Below, in pieces: positions 16,881 through 29,260 of a DNA stretch of 64,000 nt (positions within the stretch are counted from its first letter, which is position 1; every line of letters begins with the position of its first letter). Position numbers and translations under genes: made by a program. Below the pieces are notes generated by a model. That model made no database searches, was not told where the DNA came from, and saw only the letters and a list, made by a program, of their open reading frames with translations. Origin of the DNA: Polytrichum commune (Eukaryota > Streptophyta > Polytrichopsida > Polytrichales > Polytrichaceae). The stretch spans positions 61,521,554 through 61,585,553 of the forward strand of contig OX485803.1 of NCBI GenBank assembly GCA_950295325.1, read 5' to 3'.

Positions 16881-17227
16881 GGCGATGTATGCAGGATTGC
16901 TTGTGCGCCGCTCAGCTTATCCCGGGCTTCTTGGGAGCCCCAGTTGTGTTGGAGTTCATATTTTGCTGCTATGATATCTTCAAATTGGGTGAGGTAGGTT
17001 GCTTTCCACTTCTTTTTTTGGTGTTTTGTTAATTCCGCAGAATTCTGTCTAATAGCTTGATTTGCCACCACCATCTTCTGGTTCCAGTTTCCCAAGGATG
17101 GATCATCCATTACCCCTTTCTAGGTGGCAAATAAGGCTACTGTGTTGTTTGTGTTCACTATGAGCCCCTTGTTAAAGCGTACCGGCCATATTTTCCCCTT
17201 TCATTCGTCATTAAAGTGGAGCAGAAC
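16742..17227 (-). pseudogene. LINE fragment: end of endonuclease domain and linker, left of the transposon
   Basis: Directly after the ACCT duplication the minus strand reads VLLHFNDE, a stop, then KGKIWPVRFNKGLIVN and WKATYLTQFEDIIAAKYELQ, the region between endonuclease and reverse transcriptase of a plant LINE. It continues the frame that breaks off at 28284 on the other side of the 11-kb transposon. LINE-like sequence fades near 16880, before any reverse-transcriptase motif; the remaining ~140 bp of this open frame are probably another sequence. Confidence 0.75.
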
Positions 17228-17254
17228 ACCTGAGTGGAAGTATGCTAGACCCTA
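17228..17254 (+). repeat. Left target duplication and left terminal inverted repeat
   Basis: ACCT at 17228-17231, then the left TIR at 17232-17254. It matches the reverse complement of 28257-28279 with a single mismatch at position 2 of the TIR (A on the left, G on the right). Confidence 0.92.
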
Positions 17255-18338
17255 GTACTTTTTGCGTCACAGTAAAGTATTTCAGCGAGTACCGTAGCTT
17301 TGTACTTAGGTAGAGCATGATGCTTCAATGTTTTTGCAGGTTTTGATCGGAGAATGGAATAGGTAAGATGCTGAAGATCTTATTAGCATTGTTGAGAGGG
17401 TTTTAAAACTTAACTGCTCATGTTAATTTTGTACTTATGACAGCTTCACTTCATATGTCCCAAGTACAAAAAAAATGGAAAAGTACAGAAATGTATGTTT
17501 GGAATTGCATGGATTTTGTTGCCGCTCATGGAGGAAATAGGAAATGGAATGGTCTTTTTAACACCATTAGAAGTTCTGAAGCGGGGTTACATATTCGGTG
17601 TGAATCTGTATAATTAGTATTGTACTGTTGGCAAGGCGGAAATGTATGAAAAATTAAGATTTTTGTCAATCCAAACGCGGATTTTGGGTATCCAAAGCTT
17701 GTTCTATGATGGCTAATCAAAGAATACGTGAAAAAACAGTTTCCCCACCATCTCATTTTATACATGCGATTGCGATCAATCTGTACAAAAAGTACTTGGA
17801 GTATATAATGTACAAAACTCTGGTAGATCTTGACCGTCCGTGTTGAGTATCGTTCATCTCCACCGTCAAATTCTTGCCCCTTGATCCTACATTCTAGGAC
17901 GCCGAGCACTGTCAACGGTTTCCTTGTGTCCTCCCTGCAACTTTGACAGCTCTTCCAGCTTGGAGAACCAGTCAACTGCGTGTCTTTCTTCTACATTGCT
18001 TTCGTATGCACAGCTTCGGGTCCAGACCATTGCCTTCCCTCATTCACTCAACACACCCTTGTCTTTGCACCTTCATCTTCTACTAGGTTTTAGGTTCATA
18101 CAATTGTAGGGGTTTCGTTTAGACAGAATGAGAGAGCTCGAAGGGTGGATTCGAACTGTATCAGCTCTCATCCCACAGAGGAGGCTTGAGCTCGTATTTT
18201 GCAGGATTGGAAAAAGCCCCTCACACATTTGGCATTAGCATTCGTATATTAAATGACCATGTTGTTCAACTTGTTCAGTAGGGAAGTCGATCTAACAGTG
18301 GGCTAGAAGAACTTTGAGAGGAATCGAGATTCAAGGAC
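17255..18338. promoter_or_regulatory. Left subterminal region rich in GTACTT/AAGTAC motifs
   Basis: About 1 kb without a convincing gene. GTACTT, AAGTAC and GAGTAC-type motifs recur (near 17255, 17290, 17311, 17431, 17463, 17484, 17624, 17786-17815) in both orientations; the right end has them at 28200-28235. Such subterminal repeats are commonly transposase-binding sites, and this region must also contain the promoter for the rightward genes. The 149-codon minus frame at 17526-17975 is not supported by any motif. Confidence 0.45.
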
Positions 18339-18650
18339 ATGGACAAACAATTCGGCCCTAGTGACAGAGAGAAGGCCACACTCAAAACATTATCCGTCAA
18401 AGAAGACGAAGTGGAACTATGGTGGGACAACCGGGAGCTGGAGGAGCATTTCCAATTCGGTGCAGATTTTTTCGGGTTGGAGACGCCCTTCGAGATTCAC
18501 GTTGCCGAAGTGAACGCCAACGTCTTAACTTCACTGCTCCTCATCCGCATCGGCATAGAGCATGGACGGGAGCTGGCGCAAGATAAAGACATTTGGAACC
18601 GTGTTTTTGCAATGTTGTTCAATTTTTATATGAGTAAAGGGTTACATTGA
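18339..18650 (+). CDS. Small acidic protein of the transposon, unknown function
   Basis: A 103-codon frame from an ATG to a TGA, reading MDKQFGPSDREKATLKTL, then WWDNRELEEHFQFGADFFG and LLLIRIGIEHGRELAQDKDI. It is acidic and predicted largely helical, with hydrophobic and charged residues spaced as in a folded protein. It lies 730 bp upstream of the transposase start on the same strand and could be a separate accessory gene or a 5' exon of the transposase transcript. I do not recognise it. Confidence 0.4.
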   Translation: MDKQFGPSDREKATLKTLSVKEDEVELWWDNRELEEHFQFGADFFGLETPFEIHVAEVNANVLTSLLLIRIGIEHGRELAQDKDIWNRVFAMLFNFYMSKGLH

Positions 18651-19381
18651 TTTCTTGTGGTACCTCCCCTTGTAAATGAGGTTCTGATTAGTTTTAGCAT
18701 ATTTTCGTGGTACCCATCGCAACTGCACAAAAGCTGTCAATGGTCTTGTTTCATTTCGTAACACGCATTTACTCTGATCTGGTTGAAGGATCTCGCATTT
18801 ACTAAGTCACTGCAAGTATACTGCTTAGTCTTTTGCAAATGAACATTGTTAAAAAGCAACATTCCTCTACATCATATTGCACGTTTACAAATTCACATTG
18901 TGAAACAGTAAAAGTAACATACATGTATGTTTCTCCACCTTGGCAGGTCAGAAATCCACAAGATTCGTGTATAAAGCGCAAAGTTTACATACTATTAAAT
19001 GTTGTCCACACGATCAATATTTATCAGCAACATCAACGTCCAGTGCTCATTTGAACACTGGACCCTCTTATCAATCCACACGGTATGGATTTTGGAGTTA
19101 ATTGAGTATGTGCATGTGTACACGCAGTGAGTACATTATCTGGTTCCGATAATCAAGATCCTATTTTTCAGGGGCGCCAATCCTAAGATGCCGCCGCCAC
19201 TAGCAACCCCTTTGCCTCCACGTCGGCGCCGTCTTCTGAATCTCCCTTCCTCTCAGTGTAGTCGTTGTAATCTGCTGTATTGTCTGTCTATTCGATCTCT
19301 CTTGGAATTCACCTATAGTTTGTGCATGGACATTAAGCAATTCATTGCTAGATTATGCGATTTCTTCTTGTTTGCTAAACG

Positions 19382-22300
19382 ATGTCTAAGTCGAGGCAGC
19401 AATCCCTTCTTGTCCAGAAACTGATTACGTCGTACTTCCCTTCAAGAGGCTTCCACACGGGATTGCTCTCCGCTAGTACTGAGTTAGACCCCCTTCTCTA
19501 CACAGTGGATAGCCAGACTAGTGACTCTTGTTACGTTTCTGAGACCCCGGTCTCTAAACAAGGGAACCGTGACTATTATCTAGGCAAATGCAACACCGTA
19601 TCTGAAGAGTCTTCGAGGCGTGCACTATTTGCAACCGCAGTTTCTCTAGATCCATATAGTAGCTACGATTACCTGCCTTCTCTATCTGATGTACAATTTT
19701 CCATAGGTTCCCCCACTAGTAGCAGCGAGTCGATTGCATTTAGGAGGTGACAGGCGACTACATTTTGGTAAGTTGTTTCACATTTTTATGTAGATGTGTT
19801 TAAATTGTTTCGTTTCCATCGCCTCCTTGATCCTACTAGGCTCTAAAAGGCACCCTCTATGTACTCATCATTCTCATGTGCTGATATTTCAGGGTGTTAG
19901 TTATGGGGAATGCTGCAAAGAGGCAACAAGTGCGAGGGGGTGTTAGTCGGCTTGGTCCTGCAGCGAGGGCTGCTGCAGCAAGGATGGAGGAAGAGCAGAG
20001 AACTGTATCTAGAGTGATGGCGAGAGCACGTAAGGCTCTACAGAGAGCACGTGAGAGAGAGAGAGAGGAAGAGACACGAGGTCTAGCTTCGGAGCCTTTA
20101 CACGATGACACACCTGATCAAATGTCAGTGAGGGAGTTGAATCGGATCTCTTTGCGAATAGTGAAGTATATTGTTGGAGAGTTGAGGAGTTGTCCCGGTC
20201 CTTCAAGTAGAAGAGATGCTATTGAGAGGGTTATGAGGCATAACGCTTTTTGGCCTCTCTTACCTCTGTATTATCCTAGGCCTCAAGAGGCAAAGGTCAC
20301 ATATGGTTTCATAGAGAACTTTAAGAACGAATTGCAGTTGGTGAAGGTGGCAAACTCGAATGAGCGATTAGCAAGAAAGAGTGTTTTATTAGATGCTGCA
20401 GTAAGCTTGGGAGTTGATGGGGTGTCAGCATTGTCGCGTGTACTGGATACTTCTGCATCTAGCATCAACATAGCCATGAATAGAAGAGTGTATGGGTTGA
20501 ATCCTGAAGAGATAGTGCCTTGGCTTCGCCTCAATCGTCAGAAGAGAGGAGGCTTGTCAGATTACGTCAAACTGCAGATTGAGATATGGTGGAACAGACA
20601 AACCAAGGTTTCGCCAAATAAGAAGGATGTTGTTAAACACAGGGTAGGACGAAATCTGTGGGTGGAGCCTCATCCTACGCACTACCTCTGCGAGACACAG
20701 GTAAGATCTTCCACCGAAGGTTACATATTGTACATTCATCATGTTCCTTGTATGCGGTTTATACCATAGAATACAAGGTCGTTAGTATCACCCCAATATA
20801 TAGAGCGCTATGTACTTAATTTCTTACTAACGAAGGGTCGAATGTACTAATGTGGGCAACAAGTAATGCCAATATACAAAGTGGTATTACTTGGTGTAGG
20901 AGATGTGTACATGAAATACTCTGCTTCCCGTTGGTTAGTACTGAGTTGGGACTCCTCATATGTACTCTATACCGGAGATGTACAATAAGGATTAAATGTA
21001 CGAACACTGAGACACTTTGTGTATATGTCGTACTCATCGGGTGTGGGAGTCGTCTATACTTAGTACATTCGGTGAGTGTGTTCGAAGTACCGTTGTATTT
21101 CTTGTACTGGATGTAATAACAAATCCAAGGATGTTGTACTTAATGAATACTTTTGTATAGATTGTATTTCATTCAAAAAGGGTTGTACCGTGCTTTATTA
21201 CTTTTAGTGTAATGAGTCTAACAATTTTGGAAACATTTGCACTGGTTGACAGACGACGTTCTTTTTGCGTTTTAAGGAGGCTCATCCAAAGTGCAACGTG
21301 CGCCAGAGAGCCTTTGAGAGGTTGAAACCATGGTGGGTTAGGAAATTGAAGGAACGAAACACCTGTTGTTGTATATACCACGTTGAGATGGACTTCATGA
21401 AGGTTGGATTGAGCCATCTCAGAGATCAACTAAGGGGGTTGCATTCAAGGATCACGTGCAACTGCCAATGTCAAGTATGTAAGGGTGAGGTTGAAGGGAC
21501 TTGCCATGCACACCAGGCAATTTACAAGCGCATCACGATGATGTGGGAATCTTGTGTGTGTCTGAAAGGAGAACTGGATGTGTGGCACAAACTTGATTGT
21601 CTCATGGGAGAGTGTCCAAATTGTGGCTTTCATTTATTTCCCCTTTGCCCTTTCGAGTTGTCTAGTACTGACTCCTTTCTTGTGAAGTGGAAGTGTTTTG
21701 AATACTATGAGGTTGGCGTAGATAAGAGGACCGGAAAGCCCAAGAAGCGGCTCAGAGAGGCTTTCAGGGATACCCCTGTGGAAGAATTTTTGTCCTACAT
21801 GGGGAAAACAGTGTCCACGTTCATCACCCACAACTTCAGAGCTAGGTGGCAGGATGAGCAATGCCATTTGATGATGAAGAACGTCCCGGAGGGAGTACTT
21901 GTGTCACATATTGATTTCGCAGAAAATTATAGCTTTGCTATTCAGAATGAAGTGCAAAGTTTGTACTATTTCAGCACGTCCGTAACCATCCTAGTCCACA
22001 TTACAATGTGGAAGGAAGGTGAAACCGTAATGAAGCAGACCCACTTTTACATATCGGACGACAAAGATCACGATTCTGCTTATGTCCAACATTGCTTGCT
22101 CTTGCATTGGGACTGGTTAGAGGACCCAGGATTTATTCCGGAGGAACATTGGGTGTATAGTGATGGATCACTATATTCGGTAATTGGAGACTTTTTCATG
22201 ATTTTGAGGCTACTTAAGGACATGATTTTCAAATAAAGGACTAGGAAAACACACATATATATTCAATGTAACTTATTATATTAATTTGCGTGGACAACAC

Positions 22301-23418
22301 TAACCAATTTGGCACAAATACATGTCATCACAATAAGAAATTGGACCAAATATTGAACCATTTGCATTTATTTTGAGATTCTCCAAAGTCTCCGATTAAC
22401 GAATATAGTGATATGGTTGTAGTGCTCAGTTTAAATGTGCAACAGCTATGTACTTTGTAGCGAGATATCCCATGCTCACCAAGGGATGCAAGATGCGGTG
22501 GAATTATTTCGAGACTACTCATGGGAAGGGAGAGTGGGACGGGGCCGGGGCGGTCGTGAAGAGGGCGCTGAGTGCGGAGCAAATTCAGAATCCTCTGAGG
22601 CCATTGGCGAATGCTGCACAAGTTGTCGACTTTCTACAGGAGAAGTACACCGAGCGGGTTCAGAGTTCCTACAAGCGGACAAAGATCAACACGGCTCCAC
22701 CCCTCTCTCGTGTATTCTGGCACATTGGAGAGAAGGAGGTCGTCCATAGTGACAGGAGCATCCGCTGCAACACTTTGCCAGGATCAAAATCTCTATATTC
22801 CATCATGGGCTTCTCTGAATTTGACCCTACTCTTCTCAGGACACGTGCTTTATCTTGTTTCTGTATACCATGCGTTGATGGTGATTGGGCTAATTGCTTG
22901 AACTTATCTCATGTGCAGGGCTGGAATGTTGGAGGCTGGTTCCGGAGAGGGCTACTTCAGTGGCTGCACAGATGGAGGAAATCGACGATGAGGGTAACTG
23001 GGTGCATGATGGCGTGTCATTGGAATTAGGAGACCTGGTTGAGGTTGGCGATAATTTCATGATACCTGCAGAAGAGGAGAATGAAGACGGCGTGGATTTT
23101 TACATTTTGCAGTGCACAAGATCTAAGTTCGAGGTACAGGGGCCTCTAGATTGTCCATGGGGGGGCGTCTTTGCCGTTGGGGATGAAGTCATTAGGGCGA
23201 AATACTTCAAGAAGCACGGTCGTGGGGATAAAACCTACTTATTTTGCAATGAAGCTGTAGAGGCGCATGTCGACGCACATCTCGTCAGGGCGTGCAAATT
23301 CCCCATGGTTCTCGCTTCCCATAGGGCCAAGGGCTCCCCAGTGTACAAGATGTCCAGCGAGACCATGAGAGTATGCGAAGATGCTTTGCGCGATTGGTGG
23401 GCATTCCATGAGGAGTAG
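19382..23418 (+). CDS. DDE-type transposase with N-terminal PIP box, five exons
   Basis: Best model: 19382-19746, 19893-20700, 21253-22179, 22430-22844 and 22919-23418, all GT-AG, 3,015 nt, 1,004 residues, no internal stop. Residues 12-19 are QKLITSYF, a canonical PCNA-interaction box. A basic helical segment (ARKALQRAREREREEE) follows. Exon 3 begins TTFFLRFKEAHP and has a Cys/His cluster (NTCCCIYH; CNCQCQVC; CPNCG). Catalytic acids appear to be Asp612 (HIDFAENYS), Asp695 (WVYSDGS) and Asp737 or Glu735 (HGKGEWDGAG). The last exon has a BAH-like stretch (GDLVEVGDNFMIP, WGGVFAVGDEVIRAKYF, LVRACKFPM). An exon joining at 22179/22430 gives SLYS-FKCATAMYFV, as expected after the second acid. The final short intron may instead be a frameshift. 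It should cut at the TIRs and integrate with a 4-bp stagger. Confidence 0.8.
20701..21252 (+). other. Transposase intron 2, rich in GTACT motifs
   Basis: Donor CAG|GTAAGATC at 20700/20701 and acceptor GGTTGACAG ending at 21252; both flanking exons are in phase 0. The 552-bp intron contains about a dozen GTACT/AGTAC motifs, like the terminal regions. Other introns of the gene are 146, 250 and 74 bp. Confidence 0.75.
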
Positions 23419-24007
23419 TTAACCAGTACTATTAGTGTCTCTGGATACTATACGTACTTTTAATGTCAATAACTTAGTGTCTATGGATACTCTGTGTATT
23501 TTAATGTAATTTGTAATGTAAAATATGAACTACTTTTGAGTATTCTTTGTAGTAATTTGAGAACTCTTTGTAGTATTTTGAGTACTCTTCGTAACATAAT
23601 ACAAAAATGCGATTTTGATAGATCTTTGCAATCAATTACTGTAAGAACTTTAATGTAGCACTTAGTATTTAGAGCCATCGCGTGAATAGAGTTTGTTTTT
23701 CCTCTTACAACCACTGGAGTTGTTGCAACATTTTCCAACAGCATAGGGATTACAAACTGGAATAGGGGTAGGCTCCATCCCCCTCAAAACATGTTGTAGA
23801 TACATACACCCACATGCATGACAAAGCAAAAAAACCCACCATAAATACACAAATGAACAATACCCCTGTCTCTTTTTTCAGCAGCCTCGTTGCAAGATAT
23901 GAGATATATCACAATGGCTACATTCCGTAGCCATGTATAAGATCTACTTAAGTGCCACGGCGCTTCTTCCGCTTCTTTGCCTGTGTGGGCGGTTGAAGCT
24001 TCTCTTG
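23419..24007. terminator. Intergenic space between convergent transposon genes
   Basis: About 590 bp between the transposase stop (23418) and the RING-gene stop (24008). It holds short repeats (TTTGAGTACTCTTCG, GAGTATTCTTTGTAGTA), AT-rich DNA and presumably both polyadenylation sites. The minus frames here continue the 3' untranslated part of the RING gene and show no domain. Confidence 0.45.
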
Positions 24008-27000
24008 TCACCTTGTCATCACTCTACCTAATCCAGCTGGCGACTTTGAAGGGGCTTGACGACCTTCACTTTCCGGCACATTTTTGACCGCCTTCATCTT
24101 TTTCTTCACAGGTGACTTCTCCGATGTCTTCTCAGCTGTCTCCTCCGGTGTTTTGAAGATCCTATCCTCCGCTGCTTCTCTTATGTCGTCTCCGGCCTCA
24201 ACAGTTGGCGTCCCATCTTTCTTCTTTGGATTGCGCCCCTCCAAGCACTCCGAACCAGGAACCTCCACTGCTGCTGTCTTCTTCCATTGGTCCTCCCCAG
24301 CATCATTTGTCTTCAGGGACTCATGCAGGCTCACCATCGTCGGAGCTACAATCTCTTGGACCGAAGCGTTGGCATGATCATCTTGAGCAACCTTCACTCT
24401 CAGCGGCTTTTGTGGGCTTATAAACTGTGGGTCATAAGACTTTAGAGTAGGGAACTTCACAACATCCTCCTCTTCCATGTCTTCCCCATCTGCATCTTCA
24501 CGCTCCTTGGAATCCACAGACTTCTCACCTTCAAAGTCTCCTTCCTCCGCATTTGAGTGAGTCGTTCCAGAAAATGATGGCAACTTCAGGTTCATTCCCT
24601 GATCGTCATCGCTGGATGACTCATCTCCACTGAGAAGGTCAGGCTCATTACCCTTCCCTCTCACCGCACCCGTCTCCAAACATTCATAGAGGACCTCATC
24701 CATCTTTCGTAATTTTTTTATTCTGTTGTTCTCTTTGTGAACCCCTCCCTTGTGGGTCACGTCCTTCACAGTGCCTTGCAAAGGGTCTAGCGACGCAGCA
24801 GCAGAGATTGTCGGGCCACCTACGGGAGAGCTTGTTGCTCGACTCGCGTCACCCTCAGTAAAATTTGATGGGAAATGCCCTGAAATCCACAGATCCCCAC
24901 AACAATCGCTTAGAATTGTGCACTCAATCAAAAAGCAGACAGTACTTCTACAATATGAAGTACAACTAGGGGGTGCAGACATTAGTTCGAATAATACTAA
25001 ACGATCATACTTCATGCACCCATGAACAATACCATAAGTACATAAGCTCAAATAAGTCTTACCTCAGAAATAAGTCTTGCCTCAGAGTATACAATGCGTA
25101 CAAAAGCAGAGTGTTTGTAACCCGAGTATAAGATGCACGTGGAGTATATGAAGAAAGTACCTAAGCATTAGTGAACATATATAACAAGTATTCTAATGTC
25201 CACGTATATACTTCCAATACATTAAGCAAATATTACAAGTATTCTAAGGTCCTCGTATATACTTCCAATACATTAAGCAGATATTACAAGTATTCTAATG
25301 TCCTCGTATATACTTCCAATACATTAGGCAGATATTACAAGTATTCTAATGTCCTCTTATATACTTCCAATACATGAAGCAGAGTAATTCCTAAGTATAC
25401 TCGACTTCTAATCTCACATTGTAGACTACAGCTACTTGTGAGGTAGATAGTCAATGTACACGAATAATACTAAACCTTTAACCTAGTCAGTATGTGGAGA
25501 TTTTTGGAGTACTATAAGTATATTGCATAGAGATCGATTTTCCATCCAGCTCACACGTTACTACTCTAGACATTGTGAATACGTAATCGTTCGCAGTGGA
25601 CAACACAAATCACGTTGACAGTCGTACTTGTTACTACTCTCGAGAGACACGTACTTTAAACGCTGTGCAGTGCACCGTCTTGAGACTAATCATTCTACTG
25701 AAATATATCGTTAGCATACCTTTAAAATACAAAATGAAGACCTAACATACTTATGGTATATTCAGATTCATTCATTAGAGACCGAACCATACTCTTATGT
25801 ACTAATTAATTAGCAAGAACATATAGACTCCAGACTAGAAAACTTACCACCATTTGGACAAGTTGCTTTCGCTTCCTCCATCCTTAGTTGCAAGGTTTTC
25901 CTCTGCTCCTCGGCACATCCAAGCATCTCGGCCATCTGGAGCATCTCAGTGCTAGGCTCTCCCCACCCAAAACTCTTATGCCACTCTGGATGTGGCAAAT
26001 TTTGGCACCCCTTAGCAATACATTTACCTCCATGTACAAATACAACCGACGCACAATAGGGATGATACAAGTGCCTACAAGATGATACAATAATGTCACT
26101 GTTAGGAAACGGAAATTGACACAGTGAACAAGTGGAAATCTCCAGAAGTCCACTCCGATCTGAAATCCCTGCACCCTTCTCCTCTGAGTAAACCATGGGC
26201 CGTGGCCAGAAGGACCCCAAAGTCTTTCCCTTCTGCAACTCTAACAACTCCGCCTTCAATGCCTTGTATTGTAAGCGATAGGCCTCAATTCCATGTGCCA
26301 TGTTGACCACCACCGACTCTGCCCATTCCAACTCTGCCCTTAAGGCCAACAGCCTAGTCTATTCCGAAGCTAATTGCTCCATTATGCCCTCCATCTTGAT
26401 TTTCTCCCGGTCAACATCACCTCCCTCACCCAGCATGGCATCAATCTTCAACCCCTTCTCCACCTTCTGGTTCTCGTAGCTCTCGAGGAGACATTGTGAT
26501 TGCTCCACCTTTAACTTACACCGATCCCTCCTCTGAAATGCCTCCTTCTCTTGCACTCTGTCTGCCTCCGTCTCCACCGATAACACGGTAATCAACTCTT
26601 GAACCCCCCTGCCCCTCTCCTTCACCGATTCTGCACAGTTCAAGTTCAATCTCTAATAGATTAATGCATAAAATTCAGTAAGTTAAACAAATGGAAAGAT
26701 CAACAAAAATCCAACATGTAGACAGATCGAGAGGATGGAAAGGCTGAATTTACCATGAGTCCAACATCCACCTCTGCGTGCATATTTTGTACCACCTTCA
26801 ACACAGACCCCTGATCCCATGCCAGACTCAAACAGTCCACCACAATCCGATGTTTCACCGAGCCTTGACTTCGTCCTCCCCTCTTCCCCCATTCTATCTC
26901 CCCTCCTGACCCCTGAACTCCATGTCGGACTTTCCCCACGCACCCCTGGCTCTACCTTTATTTTTGCCCACTCTCTACCCCGAACCTCTAGAGGCTTATC

Positions 27001-27603
27001 CCCCTCAAGCGTCTTCCTCAACGCCAACAACTTCTGGACACTTTGCTCATAGCGATTCACTTGCCTCTTGTTAGTGTCAGCCCCAAAGGCACACCAATCT
27101 ACTTTCCCTTTCCCCTCATCAAACTCAACTGCAACACCCTCGGCAAAATGTATCTTCAAGTAAGGAGGGATCTCACTCGGTGGATGTTGGTAGAGAATTG
27201 GGTGTAGGTATTGAATCCTCTTCACCACCCCTGCCCACCCGTAGCCTTGGCGTCCACCATCGCCATATGGTTCTCCAAACATTTCCTTCAACAAACTAGG
27301 GGACATTCTTCCTTTCCGAAATCGATGTGGGTTGTCGCCATCGCTTGCAAGGGTCGGGTACTCACGCTGAAAATCTTCGCGTGTCAAAGCTCGCGGTGGT
27401 TGCCTTAACCTGGCGATCTCTACATCCACCTGGTCAATCCTCTCTATCCTGGGCTTTGGCGTCTTCTTCGGCGCGGGACGTCTTCGATGTACAGCCCCGT
27501 CATCAGAGTTGTCAATCTCCTCAAATTGACTATCTCCCGTGCTTCCTCGCGCCTTGTGACCGCTGTGAGTGCTCCCCGAACGTCGTCCAACAGAACCCTC
27601 CAT
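24008..27603 (-). CDS. Transposon partner protein: coiled coil, RING-type finger, acidic tail (damaged)
   Basis: Minus-strand exons: 27603 to about 26940; a continuation in another frame ending 26754; 26652-25848; 24879-24008. Splice sites at 26753 (ATG|GTAAAT), 25847 (GGTG|GTAAGTTT) and 24880 (GGATTTCAG) keep the frame. The first exon has a conserved-looking segment (YGWAGVVKRIQYLHPILYQ). A coiled-coil region follows (26649-26200). A C3H2C3 finger at 26130-26005 has CSLC, CRHLYHPYC, KC and GC. The last exon is acidic, then basic (SPVKKKMKAVKNVP, a likely nuclear signal). Damage: an in-frame TAG at 26361-26359 and a frame change between about 27000 and 26940. It converges on the transposase, 590 bp between stops. 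Role unknown; a RING finger could bind DNA partners or act as an E3 ligase. This copy is probably inactive. Confidence 0.65.
25186..25382 (+). repeat. 51-bp tandem repeat, four copies, in an intron of the RING gene
   Basis: Units start AAGTATTCTAATGTCC at 25186, 25237, 25288 and 25339, an exact 51-bp period with few differences; the fourth is slightly truncated. They contain GTATATACTTCCAATACATT. Because 51 is divisible by three, a chance frame with a repeating peptide runs through them on the + strand; this is not a gene. The array lies in the 968-bp intron between the RING exon and the acidic last exon. Confidence 0.9.
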
Positions 27604-28256
27604 TCTCTTCAATCCGTTGTCGCCCTCCGCCTTTAATGCAGCTCACAGCGTAGCAATAATCTCCTCCTCAATCCCGGTCGTTAGCAGCCGAAGACGATGG
27701 ACTCTCACAACGAGGAAGAAGACGACCGCCGGTGATCACCCGTTGGTGATGGTGAGGAACTAGTGATCACCGGTCATCACCAAAGATGAACTCCAGTCAA
27801 CTGGCAACCACCAGTGATTGGGCCGTCCACCGGCAGTAACCAGTTATTCCTCACTGTCGACCTGTAGTCACCAGTTACCACAAGCAAAATGTAACATCTT
27901 ATCCTCTGATGACCGGTCCATTCAGTGGCCAACGAGTAATTACATATTAGCCTATGAACATGCCTTTTTTTTTGGCCCTGTTCGAACACGTGTCAAGGTG
28001 TGAGTGGCTGCCATAATAGTGGAGTTAGGTGGCCTCAACAGCCGAGCCAAAAGTCCCGTGTACTACTCCAAATAAAGCCATTTTTTTTCGATGCCACCTT
28101 TTGTAAGACAGCCCCTTCTCCATTGGAGGATTCAGATCCGCCAACTTCCACCCTCGATCTCAAATGCATGGCAAAATTAGAAACCCGAAGCCAATAGTGA
28201 GTACATGTGAGTACTTTTGTGTAGTTATAGTACCCCTGAATTTTGCCACAAGTATA

Positions 28257-28283
28257 TAGGGTCTAGCATACTTCCACCCACCT
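28257..28283 (-). repeat. Right terminal inverted repeat and right target duplication
   Basis: Right TIR at 28257-28279 followed by the second ACCT copy at 28280-28283. Beyond it the minus-strand LINE endonuclease frame continues with residues ISDH. Confidence 0.92.
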
Positions 28284-29260
28284 ACATGGTCGGAGATATC
28301 TAGCAGAGTCAAGAGAATATCTGGCAGAGTCGGAGATATCTGGCAGATATCGAAAACATCTGTGGTGCCCCAAATTTTTTCGACATGGGTTGGTACGTAA
28401 ATCCTATCTATTCTAGATAAATTCATGGTTTTGTTGTTTCTTACATTCGTCCATGTGAAGACTTTGGTTGTTTTGCGAAAGAAAGCCCCTAGGTTTAAGG
28501 CATCATAGACACCCAACCTTGTGAGCAGTTTGCTCCAGACTTTGAGTTCTCTAGTGTTGTTGTTTGTCTTGGTTGATCCGCCTTGTTTGTCTCTGGGATT
28601 CACAATGTTATTGAAGTCTCCCGCAATTAACCATTCTGCCTCTGGCAATTATAATTGTGCTAGATGGCTCCAAAGCATAGCTCTTTGCCATGTGTGACCA
28701 AAGCCATAAACATTGATTATGCCAAGTTGCAGGTGTGGGCTGAGGTTGAGAACAACGTACTGTGCTCAGCTAGGGTATAGTATGCCATGGTGTGTGATGG
28801 ATGTTGTCATACGTTCCGATAGCACTATGCGGATAGCACCCTTGAATCGTCCCAACTGTGCTAAAAAAAATCCCTCGTTCCACAGGCTGGATCCTCCTTA
28901 AAATTCCACAAATTTTGCTTGCTTGAGGCATGCGGCTTCAGGTATTCTTGTTTCTTGAAGTAGGAGAATGTATGTGTTTGGTGTTGTCTATTTGAAGAGA
29001 TTTCTTATCTCTTTGCATTTCCTGTGTCCCGTAAAGCCTTGGCCCAGACACCATGTGTTTCGGGTTGCTATGGTGATCTTGTCACCTTTCATACAAGATC
29101 GTGGGAGTGTTAGGAGGTGCATGCCTCCTCCTCGCTTAGTACCAAGAATGGGTTGTATGAGACTTCCAGGGAAGTCTGAAGTTCTATGTAATTGGTGTGC
29201 GAGCAAGGGCCTACCATCTCCTGCCAATGGGTTTGACTCTCTGTTGCTTGAATCTCTCAT
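28284..29260 (-). pseudogene. LINE endonuclease (EEP) domain, 5' side of the split
   Basis: Minus strand, from upstream to downstream: KITIATRNTWCLGQGF at about 29090, YILLLQETRIPEAACLKQ at about 28950, the metal-site GDFN (AEWLIAGDFNNIVNPRDKQG) at about 28620, FTWTNVRNN and SRIDRIYVP near 28430, and DISDH at 28290. These are the E, D-F-N and S-D-H motifs of apurinic-type LINE endonucleases. Stops (for example after IRNLFK) show it is dead. At 28283 the frame runs into the right TIR of the 11-kb transposon; the domain resumes at 17227. Confidence 0.85.

Follow-up and report, generated by a model that had tools for sequence, protein, structure and literature searches.

Positions 17232-28279 of the 64,000-nucleotide stretch of Polytrichum commune DNA analysed here (the window) hold two convergent genes within what had been read as one intact plant DNA transposon. 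The locus raises the question of what this 11,048-bp element is, whether it still works, and whether its second gene, which encodes a RING-finger protein, belongs to its machinery. We consider it probable that the element is an inactive copy from a DNA transposon family that most likely moves by cut-and-paste and has two conserved convergent genes, one for a D-D-D transposase of predicted integrase fold and one for a RING-H2 partner, and that the family lies in Sola or beside it.

The coordinates first proposed for the element hold. Its terminal inverted repeats (TIRs) pair at 22 of 23 positions, with one mismatch, and ACCT flanks it on both sides. A listing of inverted pairs for 17000-28500 has 19 entries, of which two are at least 93% complementary: the TIRs and the two termini of a miniature inverted-repeat transposable element (MITE). 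We searched a 408-Mb assembly of 64 contigs, in which the window sits on contig C1, with a 301-base query from each end, and the counts of matches are lower bounds. Besides the window itself, each query matched at least one other place, both on contig C3, at a second copy (copy 2, C3 5425474-5457301) with ~98% identity to the window copy over long shared stretches. Copy 2 has the same TIRs, with GGGTGG at the start of both ends, and is flanked by CTCT on both sides. It is 31.8 kb long because of nested inserts, one of 3.2 kb and another of ~17.7 kb. The matches flanking the 3.2-kb insert, at the point matching window 23010-23018, overlap by 9 bp, a Mutator-like duplication length. The large insert falls in an array of 51-bp tandem repeats, which in the window element occupies 25125-25430 with five 102-nt register copies. 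An Rfam scan of the window gave nothing useful.

The original prediction described a large transposon with two convergent genes, one of them a RING gene, and this description is borne out by subfamilies that keep related ends, a 4-bp duplication and a convergent RING gene. Both ends were located for five copies, which belong to three subfamilies; each has a 4-bp duplication, and the duplicated sequence is not fixed: ACCT in the window, CTCT in copy 2, ATGT in copy A (on contig C4, on both sides, with an extra mismatch in the left end), ATAA in copy G (C3:30635013-30643520), and AAGA in copy D (15.7 kb, on C1). The termini of A, G, and D are of the GGGTGGAAGTATGC, GGGTAGAAGCACGC and GGGTGGATGCATGG types. 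Element sizes are 8.5, 8.8, 11.0, and 15.7 kb, the TIRs are ~16-26 bp with at most one mismatch, and a RING finger is encoded on the minus strand in each of A, G, and D. In the copies located at both ends, the genome search that had been proposed returned related ends and one duplication length, not differing ones. Some observations weigh against this: C and D have an inner right end with a flank unlike the left flank, the left end of copy B is missing, and no ends were found for subfamilies E and F in the stretches examined.

The two genes occur together across the genome. There are ~75 transposase loci, and a search with a piece of the window RING exon gave 59 matches that merge into 58 loci. 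Forty-seven of these 58 are found downstream of a transposase, at a distance of no more than 40 kb and in every case on the opposite strand, against a chance expectation of 0.85 RING loci near a transposase with either side counted. This is co-occurrence, rather than two genes found apart in unrelated elements. Among the remaining 11, ten are more than 60 kb from any transposase, and one shares the strand of a transposase 8.8 kb away but is on its wrong side. Counted from the other gene, 62 transposase loci exceed 1 kb; a RING gene is assigned to 46 and none to 16.

Both proteins show purifying selection in the pairs that were sampled. The ratio of nonsynonymous to synonymous substitution rates (dN/dS) is 0.15, 0.05 (dS 1.92, near saturation), and 0.18 for sister pairs of the transposase and 0.13 for the RING gene (one pair compared). 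For one very close pair of transposases the ratio is 0.26, from eight differences, and two distant pairs are saturated. Distances between transposases and between their RING partners correlate over seven matched pairs (r = 0.96; 4 of 5040 relabellings do as well), a value lifted by two of the seven pairs being close sisters. The association of the transposase with its RING partner appears to be an old one.

The window element is a dead, inactive copy, not the apparently intact one first described. The MITE lies within the transposase gene, has termini ATCACTATATTCG, and is flanked by ATGG at 22163-22166 and 22413-22416. Copy 2 has a single ATGG at this site and reads straight through, and the frame is continuous across the same point in all 15 aligned relatives. 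Separate from the MITE, a 1-bp difference near 22932 breaks the transposase frame once more. Two in-frame stops, at 26359-26361 and 24008-24010, interrupt the RING gene, and neither is present in copy 2. Copy 2 is also broken, by inserts of its own; in its large transposase exon the first ~35 codons are not open. Summed over five coding stretches, window and copy 2 differ at 18 synonymous and 36 nonsynonymous sites, a coding constraint much weaker than among relatives, as expected if the copies are decaying. We reject an intact element with a five-exon transposase gene, given the MITE posing as an intron, the break at 22932, and the two RING-gene stops.

The transposase core consists of two coding exons and ~900 residues without the MITE, in place of the 1,004 residues over five exons that had been modelled. 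One of the supposed introns is the MITE, and the former exon 1 appears to be an open reading frame (ORF) separate from the transposase. A start similar to that of exon N, with GT right after the matching peptide, occurs in five of five sequences (window, A, C, E, and F). An upstream ORF similar to that of the window was seen in one of four other subfamilies inspected, or two of five with the window included. The second subfamily's upstream ORF also has a PCNA-box-like motif, QTLITDFF (L053:2097-2120), and no such motif was found on the plus strand in the three further subfamilies inspected (A/G, C/D, and E).

Putative D-D-D positions align in 15 of 15 transposase rows. The predicted structure of the core resembles retroviral integrase and IstA, and we take the protein for a D-D-D enzyme whose RNase H core is integrase-like. 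Searched with Foldseek alone, it had no match at E ≤ 0.001, with NurA, Piwi/Argonaute, and others in the top rows. Pfam matched no family in the 15 rows save GGDEF (E 0.093, one row), which we take as chance. No relatives of the transposase were found in GTDB genomes and phage records with a single-protein query, or in GTDB genomes, viral contigs, and PDB sequences with an alignment profile; eukaryotic genomes are scarce or absent in these collections, and the negative result is therefore of small weight. One PDB match (E 0.18, a mannosidase) was taken as chance.

The minus-strand protein begins with a helical part, which is followed by a coiled coil and a RING-H2-type finger. Its eight zinc ligands (C3H2C3) are invariant in all eight aligned rows, which represent 8 of the 58 loci and place the finger in the RING-H2 class. 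Across subfamilies the protein keeps only 19-28% identity to the first aligned row. A profile of the RING matched ten RING sequences in the PDB, mostly RNF165/ARK2C and Arkadia (E 0.0007-0.005). Pfam RING_2 matched six of eight members, with a score under the cut-off in the sole member for which a cut-off was stated. In a model of the protein (mean predicted local distance difference test score, pLDDT, 60), the best 50 structural matches covered only the coiled coil, and we assign no fold to the N-terminal part. The last frame of the gene in copy 2 continues to a basic end that resembles a nuclear localization signal, and the window copy stops in-frame before that point. The basic tail of copy 2 suggests that the RING protein may be nuclear.

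Table 1. Features of the window element, by position in the window.
Feature	Positions	Strand	Basis
ACCT target-site duplication (4 bp), left copy	17228..17231		sequence read directly
Left TIR, 23 bp, GAGTGGAAGTATGCTAGACCCTA	17232..17254	+	inverted-repeat comparison; copy 2 has the same end
Upstream ORF (exon 1 of the original prediction), PCNA-box-like motif QKLITSYF at 19415-19438	19379..19747	+	retained in copy 2
Transposase exon N, 266 codons, begins MGNAAKRQ, GT donor at end	19903..20700	+	start and donor of relatives
Transposase exon C: Cys-rich region, predicted D-D-D catalytic core, Cys-rich C-terminal region; holds the MITE and the 1-bp break (~22932)	21253..23418	+	continuous open frames in many relatives
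MITE within the transposase, 246 bp	22167..22412		inverted ends; absent from copy 2
RING gene, last exon: acidic, serine-rich tail	24008..24879	-	splice site inferred by eye
RING gene, central exon: coiled coil then RING-H2 finger; in-frame stop 26359-26361	25848..26652	-	exon limits by eye
RING-H2-like finger, C-x2-C...C-x-H-x2-H-x2-C...C-x4-C, approximate limits	26005..26133	-	ligands in aligned rows
RING gene, N-terminal part; includes a reading-frame change, exon limits approximate	26757..27642	-	comparison with copy 2
Right TIR, 23 bp	28257..28279	-	inverted-repeat comparison
ACCT target-site duplication (4 bp), right copy	28280..28283		sequence read directly

Relatives of the element have features of their own. 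In a subfamily represented at C6:1911962-1913488 and at least five similar loci, ~160 extra bases lie between two transposase matches, near query residue 287. This stretch is one open frame at the stop-free loci and sits ~17 residues past the MITE point, at a different place. Just before the inner transposon end of copy C is an ORF (L044:4300-5520, plus strand) that by eye resembles a 2-oxoglutarate/Fe(II) dioxygenase after zinc-finger-like parts; its only Pfam matches are weak ones to zinc fingers, and in copy D it is in pieces. The F subfamily has a further ORF of 568 amino acids (L054:1707-3410, minus strand) whose N-terminal part by eye looks like that of the RING protein. Pieces at L054:4018-5344 (minus strand), downstream of the F-subfamily transposase, look by eye like a C3HC4-type RING gene.

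Could the RING gene be a host gene caught by chance, or a passenger without a role in transposition? RING genes are common in plants, and 11 of the 58 RING loci fall outside the downstream rule. We nevertheless find this unlikely, with the gene downstream and on the opposite strand in every assigned case, its distances tracking those of the transposase, and its low dN/dS in the one pair compared coexisting with such low identity across subfamilies. Far less probable again is an intact window element from which the 246-bp insert is spliced as an intron. The insert does contain GT and AG dinucleotides usable as splice sites, but copy 2 lacks it and keeps one copy of ATGG, and the separate frame break and the two stops in the RING gene already contradict an intact gene pair as a whole.

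Where the family belongs is less certain than the rest of the explanation. Sola2 termini are 5′-GRG, a point in favour of Sola. MuDR is a plant transposon with two convergent genes (mudrA and mudrB), ~9-bp duplications, and long TIRs; it shares the convergent pair with the element here and differs in its duplication (~9 bp versus 4 bp), and no Mutator-like element (MULE) Pfam match was found. Academ, suggested along with Sola for the 4-bp duplication, has elements that carry an XPG-type nuclease, and no Pfam match to such a nuclease was found in the exon pieces scanned, a subset of exons. RAG1, associated with 5-bp duplications, contains its RING within the transposase-derived protein itself, whereas here the RING is encoded by a separate gene. 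Transib and RAG1-RAG2 transposons also draw two proteins from one transposon (PMC4411706). In Kolobok, the duplication is 4 bp, and KolobokP sets a precedent for a second protein that is encoded downstream of the DDD/E transposase and on the other strand, as here, but in that role it has nucleases, a helicase or KolX rather than a RING protein; we exclude Kolobok on its traits, with a TTAA duplication in none of five copies and C/DxxH in none of 15 rows (PMC9587614). The Ginger transposase is like the Gypsy integrase and detectable by sequence (PMC2836005), and Ginger is excluded by sequence with no integrase match in Pfam at E up to 10 for one protein and up to 1 for 15, though the predicted fold is integrase-like.

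Judged against the published description of Sola, which it mostly fits, the family is most likely Sola-like, a variant whose RING-H2 partner is conserved; it may instead be an unnamed superfamily. There is about an even chance that it is an ordinary, Sola2-like member of Sola whose RING is an accessory gene of one lineage, unremarked in library entries. Sola elements have a DDD transposase, 4-bp duplications, sizes of 2-9 kb and sometimes over 15 kb, and TIRs of 11-1124 bp, and they occur in the moss Physcomitrella (PMC10741241); the putative triad, the duplication length, the sizes, and the TIR length match here, a likeness by description only. Giant Sola-1 elements in Ectocarpus (PMC12477816) favour the same assignment. 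Against it, Sola2 duplications are reported to be AT-rich (PMC3627910), which here holds for ATGT, ATAA, and AAGA but not for ACCT or CTCT, and the element that PMC9033089 names from a moss is Sola1. Sola was one of the candidates in the original prediction. No Sola model was among the Pfam matches of the transposases. A conserved convergent RING gene also sets the family apart, with no report of one found for Sola: in titles and the starts of abstracts, with most subscription journals and Repbase Reports outside the search, we found no RING partner for Sola or any other plant DNA transposon. A distinct, unnamed DDD superfamily that carries a RING-H2 partner is a possibility that we rate clearly lower. 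It would account for the absence of any Pfam family over 15 rows (barring the GGDEF match), for the lack of relatives in GTDB genomes, viral contigs, phage records, and PDB sequences, and for the conserved second gene; eukaryotic genomes are scarce or absent in those collections, however, the traits overlap with Sola, and the criterion of Repbase for a superfamily is sequence homology (PMC4455052). More tentative still is the form in which the DDD transposons of an unnamed eukaryotic (probably plant) superfamily depend for their mobility on two proteins inherited together, an integrase-fold transposase and a dedicated partner resembling a RING-H2 E3 ligase.

For a two-gene DNA transposon in or beside Sola, we propose that the transposase would pair two GGGTRGA-type ends and cut them, and that the element would insert by staggered strand transfer 4 bp apart. 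The RING protein would be nuclear and act with its own transposase, as we infer because the pairs stay together and diverge in step. It would most likely serve as a partner subunit, or as a regulator of E3-ligase type that acts on the transposition complex or on a host factor. Its ubiquitin-ligase role is a candidate one, and the protein may ligate ubiquitin, SUMO or neither.

Sola-type elements have been little studied in plants, and this one genome holds several subfamilies. Because its gene has stayed beside the transposase while both proteins diverged in step, the RING protein is a strong candidate for a functional component of the machinery that moves the element. The family offers a testable case of a transposon with its own ubiquitin-ligase-like factor. 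The result should help annotators to label such gene pairs as transposon genes and not as host RING proteins. If the two-protein reading is true, ubiquitin signalling would be part of a transposition machine.

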